From positions 465,585-529,584 of the forward strand of contig NZ_JQSG02000002.1 in NCBI RefSeq assembly GCF_000754095.2: DNA of 64,000 nt, read 5' to 3'. Each line of letters opens with the position of its first letter. The stretch's first letter is position 1. The position numbers and the translations under genes were made by a program. The DNA is from Acidihalobacter prosperus. GTDB lineage: Bacteria; Pseudomonadota; Gammaproteobacteria; DSM-5130; Acidihalobacteraceae. Under the pieces are notes generated by a model. It was not told the origin of the DNA. It saw only the letters and a program-made list of their open reading frames with translations, and did not search any database. Positions 11,647-40,705 of the stretch are shown one piece after another.

Positions 11647-12327
11647 CTATTCGATGGGGCCCAAACGGTAGCCGGCACCCCTCACGGTATGCAGCAGGGG
11701 CTGCGAAAAATCACGATCCATCTTGGCCCGGAGACGGGACACATGCACGTCGATCACATTGGTTTGGGGGTCGAAATGATAGTCCCATACGTGCTCCAGC
11801 AACATCGTTCGCGTCACCACGTGCCCCGCGTGCCGCATCAGGTATTCGAGCAAACGGAATTCGCGCGGTTGCAGATGGATGGCCTGTCCCGCTCGGGTCA
11901 CGCGGTGACGGGCGCGATCCAGCACCAGGTCGGCCACCTCCAGGTGGTCGTCGACGGCCTGGTCGGCACGCCCCCGCCGTTGCAGGGCCTCCAGCCGCGC
12001 GAGCAGCTCGGAAAAGGCGTAGGGCTTGGCGAGGTAGTCGTCGCCGCCGGCCTTCAGACCGGTAACGCGGTCGTCGACCTCGCCCAGCGCGGACAGGATC
12101 AGTACCGGCGTGGCGCGACCGGCGGCGCGCAGCGCCGATATCAGGGAAAGCCCGTCAAGCCCGGGCAGCATGCGGTCCACCACGAGCACGTCATGCTCGC
12201 CGGACACCGCGCACGTCAGGCCATCCGAGCCGTCCGCAGCGAGATCCACCTCGTAGCCGCTTTCCCGCAATCCGCGCGCGAGATGGGCCGCCGCCTCCCG
12301 ATCGTCTTCAACCACGAGTACACGCAT
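11647..12327 (-). CDS. OmpR/PhoB-family response regulator
   Basis: This 226-aa regulator has an N-terminal receiver (EDD near the start, phospho-acceptor Asp in VVDRMLPGLDG at about 51, conserved Lys in YLAKPYAFSELLARL) and a C-terminal winged helix (LLEYLMRHAGHVVTRTMLLE; VHVSRLRAKMD). It opens the unit that continues with the unknown gene, opgH, opgG and the kinase, and is divergent from cytochrome b561. A direct repeat (GTTAAT/GGTAAT, 11 bases apart) lies about 45 bases upstream and could be its own operator. It belongs to a general clade; comparison with PhoP or QseB-like regulators cannot be resolved here. Confidence 0.92.
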   Translation of the reverse strand: MRVLVVEDDREAAAHLARGLRESGYEVDLAADGSDGLTCAVSGEHDVLVVDRMLPGLDGLSLISALRAAGRATPVLILSALGEVDDRVTGLKAGGDDYLAKPYAFSELLARLEALQRRGRADQAVDDHLEVADLVLDRARHRVTRAGQAIHLQPREFRLLEYLMRHAGHVVTRTMLLEHVWDYHFDPQTNVIDVHVSRLRAKMDRDFSQPLLHTVRGAGYRLGPIE

Positions 12328-19847: not shown

Positions 19848-21044
19848 TCACTCGTCGTACTTCGGCGTCGCGCTGATGCGGTGAATGCTCAGGTCCGCGC
19901 CCAGGTACTCCTGTTCCTGGGTCAGGCGAATGCCGACGGTCAGCTTCAGCGCACCATAGACCGCCAGCCCGCCGCCGAAGGCGATGGCGACGCCCAGCCC
20001 GGTCCCCACGAGCTGTGACCAGAAACTCACACCGCCGGTGCCGCCCAGCGCCTTGAGGCCGAAGATGCCGGCGGCGATCCCGCCCCAGGCGCCGCACAGC
20101 CCATGCAACGGCCAGACGCCGAGCACGTCGTCGATGCGCCAACGGTTCTGCGTCAGCGTGAACAGCCAGACGAAAAGCCCCCCGGCCACGGCGCCGGTGA
20201 TCAGGGCGCCGATGGGATGCATCAGGTTGGAGCCGGCACACACGGCCACCAGCCCCGCGAGCGGGCCGTTGTGCACGAAACCCGGATCGTTGCGCCCGGC
20301 GAGCAGGGCGGCCAGCGTGCCGCCGACCATCGCCATCAGGCTGTTGACCGCGACCAGGCCGCTGATGTCCTGGATGTTCTGCGCCGACATCACGTTGAAA
20401 CCGAACCAGCCGACAGTGAGTATCCACGCACCCAGCGCGAGGAAGGGGATGTTCGACGGCGGATGCGCGTAGATCTCGCCCTCGTTGCCGTAGCGGCCAT
20501 GACGCGGGCCGAGCATGAGCACCGCCGCCAGCGCGATCCAGCCGCCCATGGCATGCACCACCACGGAGCCCGCAAAGTCGTGGAACGGATGGCCGAAGTG
20601 CGCCGTGAGCCAGGCCTGGAAGCCCAGGTTGTCGCCCCACGTCAGCCCCTCGTAGAAGGGATACACCAGCGCCACCAGGACGAAGGTGGCGGCAAGTTGC
20701 GGATAGAAGCGTGCGCGCTCGGCGATCCCGCCGGAAACGATGGCCGGAATCGCGGCGGCGAAGGTGAGCAGGAAGAAGAAACGCACCAGCCCCCGGCCGT
20801 TGTCCTGGGAAAGCTCGCCGGCTGCATGCAGGAAATTGGTGTGATAGGCAATCGCGTAGCCGATGAAGAAATAGGCCAGCGTTGAAATCGAAAAGTCGGC
20901 CAGAATCTTGACCAGGGCGTTGACCTGATTCTTGCGTCTGACCGTGCCCACCTCGAGGAAGGCGAAGCCCGCATGCATGGCCAGCACGAGGACGGCGCCG
21001 AGTAACAGAAACAAGGTATCCAGAGCCGGGGTGAGGTTGTTCAT
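19848..21044 (-). CDS. amt: Ammonium transporter (Amt family), copy 1
   Basis: ATG at 21044 (MNNLTPALDTLFLLL) gives 398 aa with eleven predicted helices. Family signatures are visible: DFAGSVVVHAMGGWIALA (twin-His region, first pore His) and LFVWLFTLTQNRW. It transports NH4+/NH3 across the inner membrane. No glnK/PII gene is adjacent, unlike many amtB loci. A GTG 33 bases upstream is in frame but overlaps a GCAC-N7-GTGC box, so the ATG is favoured. Two such boxes lie just upstream. A second Amt gene is at 51589. Confidence 0.88.
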   Translation of the reverse strand: MNNLTPALDTLFLLLGAVLVLAMHAGFAFLEVGTVRRKNQVNALVKILADFSISTLAYFFIGYAIAYHTNFLHAAGELSQDNGRGLVRFFFLLTFAAAIPAIVSGGIAERARFYPQLAATFVLVALVYPFYEGLTWGDNLGFQAWLTAHFGHPFHDFAGSVVVHAMGGWIALAAVLMLGPRHGRYGNEGEIYAHPPSNIPFLALGAWILTVGWFGFNVMSAQNIQDISGLVAVNSLMAMVGGTLAALLAGRNDPGFVHNGPLAGLVAVCAGSNLMHPIGALITGAVAGGLFVWLFTLTQNRWRIDDVLGVWPLHGLCGAWGGIAAGIFGLKALGGTGGVSFWSQLVGTGLGVAIAFGGGLAVYGALKLTVGIRLTQEQEYLGADLSIHRISATPKYDE

Positions 21045-21073
21045 CGCATATGCACCGATAGCCGCCCAAAAAC

Positions 21074-21117
21074 GCACTATATTAGTGCATAGACGTTAGC
21101 TTGCACAGATTAAGTGC
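21074..21117. promoter_or_regulatory. Two tandem GCAC-N7-GTGC palindromes (NtrC-like boxes)
   Basis: Box 1 is 21074-21088 (GCACTATATTAGTGC). Box 2 is 21103-21117, with arms extending to TTGCAC/GTGCAA at 21101-21119. Both have seven bases between arms and their centres are 29 bases apart. GCAC-N7-GTGC is the classical NtrC target form, and ammonium transporters are NtrC-regulated in many proteobacteria. The boxes lie only 30-75 bases before the amt start, and I find no convincing sigma-54 promoter between them and the gene. They may therefore act from downstream of a promoter, repress, or bind another factor. Confidence 0.5.
21095..21104 (+). repeat. Extra copy of the island-boundary repeat GTTAGCTTGC
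   Basis: An exact copy of the ten-base sequence at the end of the Shedu-like gene (21392-21401), in the same orientation and 297 bases away. A gene fragment on the minus strand also ends at this copy with the same last codons (GCA AGC TAA), as the Shedu-like gene does. It may mark an older insertion boundary. It overlaps NtrC-like box 2. Confidence 0.5.
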
Positions 21118-21321
21118 AATCCCGGATCTGCATCGTTGCGATACCTACATGGGCGTTGAAGATGGATACCGCCAGCGGATTCGTTCATCGAGGACTGAAG
21201 GATCTCGGATGGCGATTGACCACGCACAAGGCTGTAGTGACCGCTCTTGGTACTAGTCAGGATTAGCAGCACACGACCCCAAGCTGCCAGTTCCTTGTAC
21301 GTGACGCGCTGTCGGTTCCAG
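21105..21321 (-). other. Non-genic stretch with an ORF remnant
   Basis: Between amt and the Shedu-like gene there is no intact gene. On the minus strand an open frame without a start codon reads WNRQRVTYKELAAWGRV at its beginning and ends GLHLICAS followed by TAA inside the repeat at 21095. It may be the remnant of a former cassette gene. The rest holds only the NtrC-like boxes, the repeats and the attC-like palindrome noted separately. Confidence 0.35.
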
Positions 21322-21401
21322 GCTCAACAGCAGCCGTTCAACGCCAAGGGAAAGACGCGCGTGCTTTTTGCGCGTCGACCTTGACCCGCTTGTTAGCTTG
21401 C
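21322..21401 (-). repeat. attC-like imperfect palindrome at the end of the Shedu-like gene
   Basis: Read on the minus strand: AGCTAAC (R''-like, containing the TAA stop of the gene), a five-base spacer, GGTCAAGG, a GACGCGC/GCGCGTC stem with a loop, CCCTTGG, then GTTGAAC and GTTGAGC (both fit GTTRRRY). Length is 63-77 bases depending on which right core is used. The gene stop lying inside the first core is typical of integron gene cassettes. R'' is not a perfect RYYYAAC, and no integrase gene is in the window. Confidence 0.45.
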
Positions 21402-22562
21402 GCCAATGAATAGGTGACAAAAAGTATCATAATCAATGATTTCTATATTATGGTACCTTCGTTGTGCCTGCTTTACTTCTTCTGGCGATGAATTTTCCCA
21501 GCTGCCTACAACAAGTACCAGTTTTGGTTCTTTAACCTCAATACCATATTTCTCTTTAGCATGCTTCGCATTCTTAGGATAAGTAAAATACTCTTCATAA
21601 TTTACAAGTTGCGCTACGCCTTCCTCGACATAATCTATGAATCGCCTTCTCTTTCTACCGCCTTTAGTAACATTTTTCTTTGCTAAAGCTGCCGTTTTGA
21701 GGTCGTAGATATCATAATATCCATCGGGCCTCCGAACTAACAAATCTGGGTTTATCGCAACATCCTCACAAGTACCATCATGTTCCAACCACTGTAAATA
21801 TGGTTCGTATTCAAAATGCTCCGTTTTAAATGCGCTCTTTATTATTTCTGGGTGTAGCTTGAGGAACTCTCCAATTGTTGTTTCATGTAGCCCAGGTAAT
21901 AGATACATGCTTTGTAGCTGTCCGGCTACTATAAGCTGTTCTTCAGGCTTGCCTTGAATGGTATGAACACCTTTTACTTCTTTTTCTTCTAAGCCTTTCT
22001 TGAAAAATTCAACCAACTTAGGCTTTGTGACTGTGCTTTTAAAAATATACGCAGCCAATATGTTTTTACACCTATATAAATGGCCCAGCCTATTTACGAG
22101 GATACTGTTTTCTATTAAGCAAGATTCGAAATTCTCCCCAAAAGAGAAAACGCTACCCTTACCACCAGTCCTATTAAGCTTTGACCCGTAAAGCTCAATT
22201 GTAGGAAAACGTTTTTCTAAAGCTTTGAAATCTGCTTTTTGCGCTAAACATAAAAATCTAAAACCATGATTACTACCATCCATGTGCACTAAAGGGTCTG
22301 GTTCAGAATCATCAAATTGACTTAGATAACGATAAATTGATTTTTCTTTATGCCTTTTAACGGTCAAGCCATTAAATATTTTCGTCACCCCAACAAGCTC
22401 CGCGACATAAAATCCTGAGCAGTTTGTAACTAGTAAGATATTTGGATATAAAACACTACCGCCATTTGAATCTAAGTTTCCATTGGCTTGCATTGTTGAA
22501 ACGTATGCAAGATATTGCACCCAAATAGACTTAGTCTCTGTTACAAACGTTTCGAATATCAT
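21393..22562 (-). CDS. Shedu-like (DUF4263) anti-phage nuclease
   Basis: This 389-aa protein is encoded in DNA much richer in A+T than its surroundings. The C-terminal 150 residues show a PD-(D/E)xK-type nuclease core: NPDLLVRRPDGYYDIYDLKT supplies the two acidic positions and the lysine, and GVAQLVNYEEYF supplies the QxxxY helix. Strands around PKLVLVVGSWENSS and IEIIDYDTF complete the fold. TTIGEFLKLHPEIIKSAF and FEYEPYLQWL precede it, as in SduA proteins. Residues 1-200 have no motif I recognise. Shedu is a single-gene defence system, and no partner gene is visible. AAGGAT lies six bases before the ATG. The base composition and flanking repeats indicate horizontal acquisition. Confidence 0.78.
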   Translation of the reverse strand: MIFETFVTETKSIWVQYLAYVSTMQANGNLDSNGGSVLYPNILLVTNCSGFYVAELVGVTKIFNGLTVKRHKEKSIYRYLSQFDDSEPDPLVHMDGSNHGFRFLCLAQKADFKALEKRFPTIELYGSKLNRTGGKGSVFSFGENFESCLIENSILVNRLGHLYRCKNILAAYIFKSTVTKPKLVEFFKKGLEEKEVKGVHTIQGKPEEQLIVAGQLQSMYLLPGLHETTIGEFLKLHPEIIKSAFKTEHFEYEPYLQWLEHDGTCEDVAINPDLLVRRPDGYYDIYDLKTAALAKKNVTKGGRKRRRFIDYVEEGVAQLVNYEEYFTYPKNAKHAKEKYGIEVKEPKLVLVVGSWENSSPEEVKQAQRRYHNIEIIDYDTFCHLFIGAS

Positions 22563-22582
22563 TATTATCCTTAATTCGACAA

Positions 22583-22592
22583 GTAAGCTAAC
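22583..22592 (-). repeat. Boundary repeat GTTAGCTTAC upstream of the Shedu-like gene
   Basis: On the minus strand this sequence lies 20 bases before the ATG and is the inverted partner (nine of ten bases) of GTTAGCTTGC at 21392-21401. If the gene is an integron cassette, the TTAGCT here is the cassette 5' end. It would join the AGCTAAC core perfectly in the circular form. No folded attC is apparent further upstream. Confidence 0.45.
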
Positions 22593-22843
22593 AATAAATA
22601 TAGAGACCCACGAAAACAGAGATTAACCAGCTGATTCTTCATCACTTTATCATTACCTCTATCTCTATATGCATGTATGAATACGGGGACACAACGCTAA
22701 CGCCCATCCAGAGTTAGACTAACGACTGGTTCCCGCTGTAATCCTGCCGCCCAACGGGTTGATATGGCAGGAACATGAACGACCGGATGTAGCTGATTGC
22801 GGAAGTCTCGATAATTCAAACCAGTCATTTGTTTGAGACATCA
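22593..22843. other. AT-rich spacer without a gene
   Basis: No credible coding sequence. It holds the upstream region of the Shedu-like gene (22593-22690, AT-rich) and a short palindrome GTTAGACTAAC (22713-22723). An inverted pair GACTGGTT/AACCAGTC lies at about 22725 and 22818. CCTGCC/GGCAGG arms sit between them. Base composition returns to the chromosomal average near 22690. Confidence 0.4.
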
Positions 22844-22845
22844 AG

Positions 22846-22880
22846 CACCCCATGCATTGCTCACAGATAACGCATGGGGT
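22846..22880 (-). terminator. Hairpin downstream of the DUF302 gene
   Basis: ACCCCATGC and GCATGGGGT form a nine-base perfect stem with a loop of about 16 bases, starting some 30 bases beyond the DUF302 stop. There is no T-run after it on the minus strand, so intrinsic termination is plausible but weakly supported. Confidence 0.4.
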
Positions 22881-22909
22881 TGAAGAATATCGCCTTAATT
22901 CCAAATCCG

Positions 22910-23431
22910 TCAGAGCGCGCCGTCGGCGCCTGCCTTGATGATTTTCATCAAGCCGGCAATCACCGAATCGGCACTCCTCTTGAGCGCCGGAGGCATCTTG
23001 CGGGACAGCAGCAATTTGGGGTTCAGCATGGTCAGCCAGTAATGGCCGTGCTTGCCTTGAACCACGGCGATGCGACAGGGCAGATAAGCGGCATAGGCCA
23101 TATTGAAGGAGACCATTTCATAGGCCACCGTGGGCTTGCAAAACTGGTAGATGTCCAGCATGCGCACATGCTTTACGCCCATGGCCTTTAGCTGGGCGGA
23201 CAGGTCCTGGTGCGCGACCAGTTTGAAGTTGAGGAAATTGGCGCGCAGCTTCATGGACTGGATGGCCTCACTCGGTGTGACACCCTTCGCCAAAGGCAGT
23301 TTGACGACCGTGGCCGGGATATCGATATGAGTCACTTTCTCTGCGAACGCAGGCTCTGCGCCCAGCAAGCCGACAACCAGCAACGAAATCAGGAAGGCAC
23401 CCCATTTCACGGGGGAGAAATTACCGGGCAT
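22910..23431 (-). CDS. Exported DUF302-domain protein
   Basis: ATG at 23431 has GGAG eight bases before it, giving 173 aa; an upstream in-frame ATG at 23467 lacks this. A signal peptide (LISLLVVGLLGAEPAFA-EK) predicts export. The mature part matches DUF302: LRANFLNFKLVAHQDLSAQL, then YQFCKPTVAYEMV and AYLPCRIAVVQGKHG, with the two conserved cysteines. Related proteins bind haem or copper-like ligands or have unknown roles; nothing here decides. It stands alone between the defence island and dcd. Confidence 0.75.
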   Translation of the reverse strand: MPGNFSPVKWGAFLISLLVVGLLGAEPAFAEKVTHIDIPATVVKLPLAKGVTPSEAIQSMKLRANFLNFKLVAHQDLSAQLKAMGVKHVRMLDIYQFCKPTVAYEMVSFNMAYAAYLPCRIAVVQGKHGHYWLTMLNPKLLLSRKMPPALKRSADSVIAGLMKIIKAGADGAL

Positions 23432-23888
23432 AACTGAATCTCCTGGGTGGATATCGGGCATTGCCAATTCATGTCTGGTAATGCCTCTAAGCGTTCGTTA
23501 GACAGCACGCATGAACTTTATATCCACACCACCAACGAGAGATTGCGACGATCACTCGCTGGCTCGGCAAGCCCGGCAGGGTCGATACCCATTCCGGGCA
23601 TTAAGGCTGCCGTCCTGGTGACATAGGCAGGCAAGAAGCCCCTCCTTCAATGCATGAAAGGGGATTCGATGATTAGCCCCGAATATTCGAGGCATGCGGG
23701 ATTTTTACGCGGGGTTGCTGAAGCTGGCGAGCGGGCATCGCACCAGCCTGGGTCAATCGGCAGCGTCGCGCGCTGAATCCTGGGTTCGGCCCACCACGGT
23801 CAAGCCGCGCATCGCGGGCTGTGTTATTGCCGGGCGAATCCCAAACGGCACATCGCGCCGACCTGGTGCGCACCCACTTGGGGCGCGT
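23432..23888. other. Intergenic region without a gene
   Basis: Nothing here looks coding. It contains an imperfect palindrome (GGCATTGCCA, nine bases, TGGTAATGCC at about 23457-23485) upstream of the DUF302 gene, which may be an operator. An AT-rich hexamer TATAAA lies on the minus strand at 23522-23517. An imperfect inverted repeat (CCCCT at 23639 and AGGGG at 23659, with CTTCA/TGAA inside) could be a terminator beyond dcd. Confidence 0.35.
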
Positions 23889-38329: not shown

Positions 38330-39501
38330 CCGCCGCCACCAACACCCCGGAAACCCTGACCGCCGCCGAACGCGTCGCGGGCGTCAGGCCCGAATGGCGC
38401 AATACGGTGCCCGCCGGCCCGACCCTCGGTCTGCGCGAGGGCGAACTGCTGCACGCCGGTCCGCCCATTGATACGCCCGAGGACCTCTGCCCACCGCTGC
38501 GCCATGCGGTCTGCGCCGCCCTGGTGTTCGAAGGCCTGGCTGGGAACCTTGAGGCGGCGGATGCACTACTCGCGGCGGGGAAGGTCCGGCTGCGGCCGGC
38601 GCAGGATCTTGGCGTCGCCACGCCGCTCGCCGCCGTCGTTTCATCGTCCATGTGGCTGCATGCGGTGGTCGATGCCGCGCACCCCGGGCGCGTGGCCTAC
38701 GCACCGTTGAACGAGGGCCCGGGCCCGGCACTGCGCTTCGGCCTGGCAACGCCCGAGGTCGTGGCAAGACTGCGCTGGGTCCACGGCACGCTCGCGCCCG
38801 CCCTCGCCGATCTGCCCGAAGCGATCGAACTGCTCCCGCTCGCCGCCGAGGCGCTGGCGCAGGGAGACGAACTGCATGCCCGCGTCGGCATCGCCTCGGG
38901 CCTGCTGGCGGACCGGTTGCACCCGGACCGGCTCGACGAGGCGTCGGCGTCCTTTCTGCGCGCCCACACCCACCTGTTCCTGAACGCGTGGATGGCCGCG
39001 TGTCTGTGCATGCTCTCGGCCGCGCGCGACTACGGCAAGGGCGATCTGGTGATCGCCGCGGGCGGCAACGGCAGGACCTTCGGCATCCAGCGCGCCAGTG
39101 CGCCGGGCGAGTGGATCGCAGCGCCCGCATCGCCGCCCCTCGGCCCAACGCTGCCCGACATGCCGCCCACGCTCGAGAGGCTCCCCACCATCGGCGACAG
39201 CGCCCTGATCGATGCGCTGGGTCTGGGCGCCATGGCCCTGGACGCCGCGCCGGCGCACGCGGCGAATTTCGATCCGGCACGGGTCGCGGCACTGGCCGAA
39301 ACGGCGAACGCCGTGCTGCTCGCCCGCCACCCCGTCCTCGGGCGCAAGGTCGGCCTGGATGCGGCACGGGTCACGCCGACACACCTGCCGGGCGTCTGCC
39401 TGGCCGCGCTGGATGCGCAGGGCGTGCGCGGACTGGTCGGATTCGGCATCGCCGCCCACCCGGCAGCCCTGTATGGGATGGCGGGCGACGGGGATGCGTG
39501 A
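38326..39501 (+). CDS. DUF1116 protein, AllG/YlbE-like (oxamate carbamoyltransferase subunit family)
   Basis: This 391-aa protein matches DUF1116 along its length: GVRPEWRNTVPAGPTLGLRE, ELLHAGPPIDTPEDLCPPL, NEGPGPALRFG, GDELHARVGIASGLL and LGRKVGLDAARV near the end. In E. coli-type allantoin catabolism the DUF1116 protein is one of three subunits of oxamate carbamoyltransferase, with FdrA/AllF and AllH. No FdrA or AllH homologue is near, so it either works with distant partners or has another role. It is coupled to the MarR gene by ATGA. A carbamoyl or amide transfer in nitrogen release is a fair guess. Confidence 0.78.
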   Translation: MTAATNTPETLTAAERVAGVRPEWRNTVPAGPTLGLREGELLHAGPPIDTPEDLCPPLRHAVCAALVFEGLAGNLEAADALLAAGKVRLRPAQDLGVATPLAAVVSSSMWLHAVVDAAHPGRVAYAPLNEGPGPALRFGLATPEVVARLRWVHGTLAPALADLPEAIELLPLAAEALAQGDELHARVGIASGLLADRLHPDRLDEASASFLRAHTHLFLNAWMAACLCMLSAARDYGKGDLVIAAGGNGRTFGIQRASAPGEWIAAPASPPLGPTLPDMPPTLERLPTIGDSALIDALGLGAMALDAAPAHAANFDPARVAALAETANAVLLARHPVLGRKVGLDAARVTPTHLPGVCLAALDAQGVRGLVGFGIAAHPAALYGMAGDGDA

Positions 39502-39686
39502 TGAGACCACACCCCGACACGCAACCCATTCGCAGCTTGCCAAGCATGGATAAATTCCGCCAAGAATGATTCAAGCCCAACAAATGATTTCGCATGAAAA
39601 TCCATACCAATAAAAACACGCATGAAATACGCAGGAACAGCCGGCCGTTGAATAGGCATTGCGTCCCATGACAGCCCAGCCGTCAG

Positions 39687-39699
39687 GTCATTTCTGACC
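39687..39699. promoter_or_regulatory. Short palindrome upstream of the NMT1-type binding protein
   Basis: GGTCA-TTTC-TGACC lies about 25 bases before the GTG start of the binding-protein gene, in a 220-base gap that otherwise shows no feature. It could be a regulator site; support is the symmetry only. Confidence 0.25.
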
Positions 39700-39724
39700 C
39701 ATCAACATGACAACGGAGATCACG

Positions 39725-40705
39725 GTGAAAAAATTTACGTACGCCATATTCGCACTGCTCGGCCTATTGGCATTCGAGTCGCCGGCCCATGCCGCCCAGC
39801 TCACGAAATTCACGTTCGCGGGTGATTCATGGCCCGGTTTCGCCCCGATCTGGGTGGCGGAAAAGGAGCATTTCTTCAAGGGCATCGAATTCAAATACAT
39901 CAACATGGAATCCGGCCGCGATGCGCTGCTGCTCGCAGGCAAGCTGGACTCCACCAACCTCAGCATGAATCAGGTCATTGAAAATTACCGGAAGGGTTAC
40001 AAGACCCCCATCGTGCTGCCGATGGATTATTCCGACGGTGCCGATGCGATCCTCGCGGACAAGAGCATCAAGTCGGTCAAGATGTTCAAGGGTCAGAAAA
40101 TCGCCCTGAACACGATGTCCTACTCCGAACTCCTGCTGCTGGGCGCGCTCAAGCACGCGGGCCTCAACCTGCATGATGTCTCCCAGGTCAACATGGAGGC
40201 CAACGCCGTCCCGACCGCGCTGATGTCGCACACGGTCAAGGTCGGCGTGACCTGGCAGCCCAATGTCAGCGTCGCACTGAGCAAGGACAAGAACGTCCGC
40301 GTGATCTTCTCGTCGCACGACGTGCCGGGGCTGGTGACGGACAACATCGTGTTCGCCGAGGGCTACGCCAAGGCGCACCCCATGGTCGTCAAGCACATCA
40401 TCGAGGGCTATCTGGCGGGCTTGAAGTTCATCAAGACCCACCCGGAGGCCGCCTACAGGATCATGGGCGACAGGATGGGCGTGAGCCCCAAGCTCGCGAA
40501 GAGCATCTACCTCGGCGTGCACAACGTAACGCTGCCCGAAATGAAGACCATGTTCTCCGGCATGGGCGCCATGTCGTACAAGGTCAGCATCGGCGACGTG
40601 CTGCAGGTCATGAAATTCCAGAAGGAGGTACCCATGGCGTACAGCCCCGACTGGAAGATGTTCGTGGACCCGCATTACGTGGACGCCATGACCCACACGT
40701 CCTGA
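39725..40705 (+). CDS. NMT1/SsuA-type periplasmic substrate-binding protein, orphan
   Basis: GTG at 39725 with GGAGATCAC before it gives 326 aa; an ATG 18 bases upstream has a poorer site. The signal peptide is FALLGLLAFESPAHA-AQ. The mature part is NMT1-like: FAPIWVAEKEHFFKGIEF, AGKLDSTNLSMNQVIENY, KGQKIALNTMSYSELLLLGA and a long C-terminal helix region. Relatives bind taurine, aliphatic sulfonates, nitrate or thiamine precursors. No matching permease or ATPase lies nearby, so it must use distant partners or act as a sensor. It follows the catabolic block after 223 bases. Confidence 0.8.
   Translation: MKKFTYAIFALLGLLAFESPAHAAQLTKFTFAGDSWPGFAPIWVAEKEHFFKGIEFKYINMESGRDALLLAGKLDSTNLSMNQVIENYRKGYKTPIVLPMDYSDGADAILADKSIKSVKMFKGQKIALNTMSYSELLLLGALKHAGLNLHDVSQVNMEANAVPTALMSHTVKVGVTWQPNVSVALSKDKNVRVIFSSHDVPGLVTDNIVFAEGYAKAHPMVVKHIIEGYLAGLKFIKTHPEAAYRIMGDRMGVSPKLAKSIYLGVHNVTLPEMKTMFSGMGAMSYKVSIGDVLQVMKFQKEVPMAYSPDWKMFVDPHYVDAMTHTS

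Follow-up and report, generated by a model that had tools for sequence, protein, structure and literature searches.

The stretch of Acidihalobacter prosperus DNA analysed here (64,000 nucleotides, hereafter the window) contains, between a DUF302 gene on the left and a gene on the right that is presumably ammonium-transporter-like, a gene encoding a Shedu-type nuclease (Table 1). The GC content falls at this gene to 0.375 (positions 21501-22500), the minimum of the window, most of which lies at about 0.60-0.74 with a lowest value elsewhere of 0.566 at 39501-40500. An earlier reading made from the letters alone (the sequence-only reading) had singled it out as a markedly AT-rich gene, which it is. 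The open reading frame begins with ATG, ends with TAA and is surrounded by repeats that are described below. In the comparisons that follow G000 stands for the own genome, G001 for a genome of the same genus, G002 for the sister species and G004 for a genome of the same family.

Table 1 Coordinates of the features found at the sduA locus (window numbering).
Feature	Position	Strand	Evidence
Right neighbour gene; its DNA is 97% identical to that of the sister species	19848..21077	(-)	ORF call
Right end (RE) of the putative docking site, dispersed repeat of about 70 bp, begins at the crossover	21270..21342	(-)	Repeat search, model R1, junction comparison
attC: R'' AAGCTAAC 21399-21392 (holds the stop codon), hairpin, R' GTTGAAC 21342-21336	21336..21401	(-)	Circularised fold
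Predicted integron gene cassette of 1250 bp; starts with TTAGCTT, last base is the G preceding TTGAAC	21342..22591	(-)	Junctions against sister species and other platforms; attC fold
sduA, Shedu nuclease of 389 aa	21393..22562	(-)	ORF call; Pfam SduA_C 1.6e-9; PADLOC PDLC00377 9.5e-115
SduA_C nuclease domain, residues 226-381	21420..21887	(-)	Pfam; predicted fold against 8ps4, 8ps5 and 8ti9, Z about 13
5' core site GTTAGCTT, crossover between 22592 and 22591	22585..22592	(-)	Repeat scan, junction comparison
Left end (LE) of the putative docking site, dispersed repeat of about 205 bp	22592..22797	(-)	Copy searches, junction comparison
Left neighbour, a DUF302 gene; its DNA is 98% identical to that of the sister species	22910..23467	(-)	ORF call; Pfam DUF302 on the sister copy

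The identity of the protein, proposed before as DUF4263/SduA, was borne out by HMM search: the Pfam model SduA_C matched with 38.6 bits (cut-off 27) and the PADLOC SduA model covered residues 1-388. The same PADLOC model is matched by all ten sequences of the SduA alignment A2, and Pfam SduA_C by six of them. The PD-(D/E)xK residues that had been recognised by eye (D273, D287, K289, Q318 and Y322) are invariant in 17 of 17 aligned sequences, the window's included, and belong to 43 invariant columns. With 17 sequences AlphaFold gave a model with pLDDT 85 and pTM 0.83, used instead of one from only 4 sequences that was unusable (pLDDT 36). Its best PDB match was E. coli SduA (8ps4, Z 13.2, rmsd 4.2, 172 residues) and the nuclease domain of the B. 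cereus Shedu protein (8ti9) gave Z 12.9. Both structure alignments (VIA-align) span mainly residues 204-389, and the predicted structure together with the invariant motif residues places a PD-(D/E)xK nuclease core fold in the model. The first 200 residues had been taken to lack any known domain and to be a possible phage-sensing part. This is true for Pfam, yet they lie within the full-length PADLOC match and are not unique: because that model spans residues 1-388, the N-terminal part belongs to an already catalogued Shedu group.

Other searches added little. PDB sequence searches gave no relative (one returned nothing, another a single chance-level row with E 0.42), NCBIfam and phage-record searches returned nothing, the plasmid search gave two distant partial matches, and the viral structure library gave weak matches, three at E <= 0.001 and none of those above TM 0.34. 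Judged by sequence and model, the open reading frame is an ordinary member of the Shedu (SduA) family of anti-phage nucleases. It is like the known Shedu proteins (SduA, DUF4263) in its C-terminal PD-(D/E)xK domain and in being a single gene, and differs in the about 200 N-terminal residues without a Pfam match. By analogy with the characterised Shedu proteins it would cut phage DNA. EcSduA binds DNA ends, nicks at a fixed distance and has an N-terminal DNA-end clamp, according to the available text of PMC12904381, and the available part of PMC12137116 reports nuclease-dependent protection against phages for V. cholerae Shedu. Elsewhere in the window, the gene at 11647-12327 (-), one of the control genes used below, has a weak PADLOC SduA match (PDLC00405, 3.9e-7) confined to residues 2-61.

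Among the 56 genomes searched (own, genus, family and class) SduA was found only in that of the window, and because of this sduA looks acquired, in agreement with the sequence-only reading. Close homologues were found in Pseudomonas borbori (79% at the amino acid level), Limnobacter alexandrii (66%) and a Moranbacteria MAG (61%). In P. borbori and Limnobacter sduA lies between attC sites, the cassette begins with TTAGCTT and the TAA stop falls inside R'' AAGCTAAC, as in the window; the Moranbacteria copy has no such repeat. Directly before sduA, P. borbori has a gene encoding a Mrr-type restriction endonuclease domain (L002:4052-4897). Diverged relatives (31-49% identity in the best segment) were seen in viral contigs (L044-L051 and L056-L071, many of 33-40 kb), and the eight in L044-L051, some of them duplicates, are AT-rich genes (GC 0.32-0.40) with no GTT inverted repeat of 8 or more.

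The inverted copies of GTTAGCTTRC noticed before at the two sides of sduA are exact, at 22583-22592 (-) and 21392-21401 (+). By number the motif is at chance level (3 in the window against a mean of 2.97 in shuffles, one mismatch allowed). Of 212 open reading frames compared, each of at least 100 aa (213 were called, genuine or not), sduA alone has a perfect inverted repeat of at least 8 nt starting with GTT and running from the leader to the stop region. A third exact copy, GTTAGCTTGC, which the sequence-only reading does not mention, is found at 21095-21104 (+), 297 bp from the attC copy; it is kept in the sister species and no cassette edge is seen there. With the ends joined, the bottom strand of the window, P. 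borbori and Limnobacter cassettes folds into a predicted hairpin with an 8-bp AAGCTAAC/GTTAGCTT stem. The z values of the circularised folds were -3.7 for the window, -1.7 for P. borbori and -2.5 for Limnobacter; for the window attC z was -2.7 with other bounds and only -1.3 in the integrated form. A second possible R' (GTTGAGC) lies 14 bases beyond the first, and we prefer the first (GTTGAAC) as the attC box. The Rfam search gave one sub-threshold match only. Taken by their sequence context, the repeats on the two sides of sduA are integron-cassette core sites.

The edges of this cassette were placed against the sister species. On the left the flank is 95% identical as far as 22598 and, beyond a 32-bp gap, again over 22608-22585, a piece in which the G|TT crossover (22592/22591) lies. 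On the right, sequence similarity sets in at 21347, which is five bases to the cassette side of the G|TTGAAC crossover (21342/21341), with 82% over 45 bases, and the flank is 96% identical from 21280, G002 having about 1 kb of extra DNA in between; this junction is less sharp than the left one. The flank homology ends within a few bases of the crossovers, and boundaries at 22591/22592 and 21341/21342 are better supported than an island bounded by the repeats. Between the same flanks G002 has three different genes. Behind each lies a site read as attC; of these sites only the first folds better than shuffles and the other two no better. The junctions indicate that integron-type recombination put the cassette, also found in other genera, next to LE. 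A second orthologous pair with different content is the C6 platform of G000 and the region 1030-1033k of G002, where the intervening DNA is not the same and the ends, judged by eye, have decayed. The flanks of the G002 platforms at 927k and 506k were compared with 400 kb of G000 contig C2 as well as with the window and two loci, and no orthologous place turned up. Also in G002, just after the RE (L036:8346-9146, C1), there is a gene for a NERD nuclease domain with a topoisomerase-type zinc ribbon, absent from the window, and after it a repeat of up to 49 bp common with the window occurs in two copies.

The cassette is framed by two dispersed repeats, LE and RE, which recur in other places. Copies of LE were found in G000, G001 and G002, and the search of G004 gave none. 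Six copies are 76-87% identical to the window LE over about 130-185 bp; the window LE itself is without 32 bp between two GGTCTCTATATT repeats that fuller copies keep. In 6 of 8 distinct copies compared the outer edge falls at 22793-22798 in window numbering. At the inner edge, the mean pairwise identity of the nine copies with the same core (36 pairs; a tenth copy, at G001 1492k, has a variant core) was 0.98 across the 10 bases that lead up to the crossover and 1.00 in the TT; past these it dropped to 0.48 over 5 bases, to 0.30 over the following 10 and to 0.24 over the 10 after that. For twelve REs (66 pairs) the identity stood at 0.37-0.45 ahead of the crossover and at 0.93 across the 7 bases that follow it, a rise that is partly there by construction, since the same 7 bases served to place the copies. 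Searches with the right flank and with a sequence model of it (R1) gave 17 matches at E <= 0.01 in 4 of 5 family genomes; 14 were at E <= 1.7e-7, of which eight had built the model and six had not. With stricter filters RE was found in 2 of 274 class genomes, G000 and G004, both of the same family.

Both ends are present at seven sites: in G000 on C2 (the window), at C3:173-176k and at C6:871-872k, in G001 at 1492-1495k, and in G002 at 506-510k, 863-865k and 927-931k. At three further G001 places (3262k, 1640k and 3289k) only LE was seen within the 8-9 kb read, and several REs in G001 and G004 (two in G004) have no LE match nearby. An uninterrupted (empty) LE|RE was found in none of five genomes. 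The end point of the LE match in the search with joined LE|RE was discarded as evidence for the crossover, being set by the joining of the query. A sigma-70 scan of 20900-23100 gave no more promoters than shuffles, and a weak TTAATN-18-TATATT, present in 5 of 9 LEs, was not relied on.

For attC sites RNAalifold gave no pairs, hence a sequence-only model (R2) was used rather than a covariance model, made of nine attC sites with that of the window left out. Run over 229.6 kb, it matched six times at E < 0.01, always in a platform or abutting RE (two in L110 and one each in L111, L113, L114 and L115), and none in L116, L117, L118 and L121 (the stretches of G000 C6 and of G001 at 1640k, 3289k and 1492k). 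The sduA gene is flanked by core sites and has a 3' attC hairpin, though this model missed the window attC, its best match in the window lying elsewhere (E 0.066).

The search for integron integrases gave a single one over the cut-off in G000, an open frame on contig C3 (474 bits against 265), adjoined by a small array of its own, in which three attC sites were recognised by eye. The SduA cassette lies on C2, where the nearest Phage_integrase match is about 61 kb off, outside the window, and is not an integron integrase over the cut-off. A complete integron platform, with intI adjacent to attI, is thus not what lies at the window locus. As to a CALIN, there is no integrase nearby, but there is one attC only, below the two-site threshold stated in the available text of PMC12444791. 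The comparison of LE with the attI of the resident integrase gave no significant similarity (135 to 833 of 1000 shuffles scored as high); as a candidate attI, LE has the fixed G|TT crossover without significant similarity to the resident attI, and binding of IntI to it is putative only. In G002 no integrase passed the cut-off, though at least three platforms are present, and therefore exchange there would either not be ongoing or be due to another enzyme. Besides a full-length integron integrase, G001 has at G001:C1:855745-856050 a fragment whose match covers the C-terminal third of the integron integrase model. We rejected this fragment as a relic of a platform's own integrase, since no LE or RE match lies in 10 kb around it.

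The cargo was read on the cassette strand in ten LE-bearing platforms of three species. In 6 of them the first listed start codon is about 14 to 33 bases past the crossover, and in the other 4 further on. Defence-type genes were found in 6 of the ten: SduA in the window, AIPR/AbiU-like and HNH at G000 C3, TIR-TM at G001 1640k, SieB at G001 3289k (by Pfam only), RmrA with a PLD-like protein at G001 1492k, and an N6/N4 methylase with HNH at G002 506k. The platforms of G000 C6 and G002 863k contain genes without match. At G002 927k there is one gene without assignment, together with an IS transposase and a weak PDC-S11 match. At G001 3262k ThiF and JAB genes lie 2.9 to 5.2 kb past LE with no mapped RE, and they were left out of the count of six. 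In the G002 506-510k platform a gene for a group II intron reverse transcriptase/maturase (L114:3768-5123, C1) lies antisense between the HNH gene and RE.

PADLOC matches at E <= 1e-10 were obtained for 9 of the 21 platform proteins scanned (a part of the platform open reading frames), the ThiF and JAB genes accounting for two of them. As controls, 10 genes were taken from the 50 called in the window: none matched at that level, and two had weak matches at E <= 1e-3. An enrichment of defence genes in the platforms is likely and falls short of established, because PADLOC includes restriction-modification models, the samples were small and not blind, and an attC of its own was recognised for part of the genes.

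With these data we consider it very probable that the Shedu cassette was inserted by integron-type recombination into a repeated docking site devoid of integrase. A mobile integron cassette with sduA would have entered the chromosomal site by site-specific recombination with a G|TT crossover. LE (~205 bp) would act in an attI-like manner, with a crossover at a fixed base and first genes that usually read away from it after a short leader, and may drive the expression of the cassette. Copies of the docking site (LE plus the ~70-bp RE) are present at several chromosomal places in the genus, with no integrase found beside them, and exchange would take place in trans, by the single over-cut-off IntI on another contig or by one since lost. 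A wider proposal, to which we give close to an even chance, is that the genus turned one integron attachment site into dispersed docking sites without integrase, with fixed-base crossovers, served by one IntI in trans and loaded mainly with phage-defence cargo of one or two genes, so that the integron would become a scattered, exchangeable defence island with cassettes in promoter-proximal first positions.

A different origin of the ends is also plausible, at a little under that level. LE and RE could be the termini of a transposable element, itself non-autonomous, on which the arrays of cassettes travel as passengers (a CALIN made mobile by an unknown transposase), the contents differing by divergence of the copies. 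The similar outer edge of LE in 6 of 8 distinct copies fits such an element, as do the different neighbours of the copies (by eye) and the window locus in G001 and G004, where the right neighbour is present and no match to DUF302, LE or RE was found. However, no terminal inverted repeat was seen by eye between the outer ends of LE and RE, and the different content at the same orthologous site in the sister species requires exchange inside the ends. The element and the docking site are compatible, and both can hold.

Rather unlikely, in our view, is that the cargo has been swapped between platforms or strains by homologous recombination in LE and RE, with no action of an integrase since the arrays were built. 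The lack of an over-cut-off integrase in G002 and the identity of six LE copies to that of the window would suit this, but the junctions lie at the integron crossover and are not spread over the repeat, an argument that concerns the building of the arrays and not later exchange. That the cassette entered a genomic pseudo-site (attG) in a single event, and that LE and RE are unrelated intergenic repeats, is improbable: attG insertion is published (Loot et al. 2024, as cited in the available text of PMC12444791), but nine LE copies have a common crossover followed by unrelated DNA, and both ends occur together at seven sites. The original view, in which sduA is a stand-alone defence gene and inverted repeats delimit an AT-rich island in the manner of a transposon, has the composition and the 10-nt inverted repeat in its favour and can hardly be maintained now that these repeats are read as cassette core sites inside better-supported boundaries.

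The docking-site reading can be placed beside known systems. Shedu on integron cassettes has been reported for Xanthomonas, and CALINs at recurrent loci too, in the available sections of PMC12444791. Integrons as stores of defence genes, including the V. cholerae chromosomal integron, are reviewed in PMC12409362, of which the available text also notes that in long arrays most cassettes are thought to be weakly expressed, far from the promoter. The window is like these (Xanthomonas Shedu, V. cholerae) in having a defence gene on an attC cassette, and differs in that the cassette is alone in a docking site without integrase and on another contig than the resident integron. Like the CALINs described in what is available of PMC12444791, the platforms are attC cassettes without adjacent intI and with changing content at recurrent loci; they differ from them by the common repeated LE and RE with a fixed crossover. 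Integrations at attG in E. coli are broadly distributed over many loci (Loot et al. 2024, as cited in the available parts of PMC12444791 and PMC11023631). The likeness is the insertion of cassettes outside attI and attC, and the difference is that here one ~205-bp sequence recurs. The Shedu protein and its presence on integron cassettes are therefore already known, and what seems new is a family of repeated docking sites without integrase that would form a scattered defence island. Dispersed attI-like docking sites of this kind were found described nowhere in the open-access literature, a weak negative since subscription papers are mostly outside its reach.

If this is true, many short platforms with the same LE would provide many first positions, which would allow several defence genes to be expressed together and each to be exchanged on its own. 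Docking sites of this type could also account for the arrival of stand-alone defence genes, Shedu among them, at conserved chromosomal sites. Furthermore, the repeated LE and RE would offer a simple sequence probe for finding unknown defence genes.
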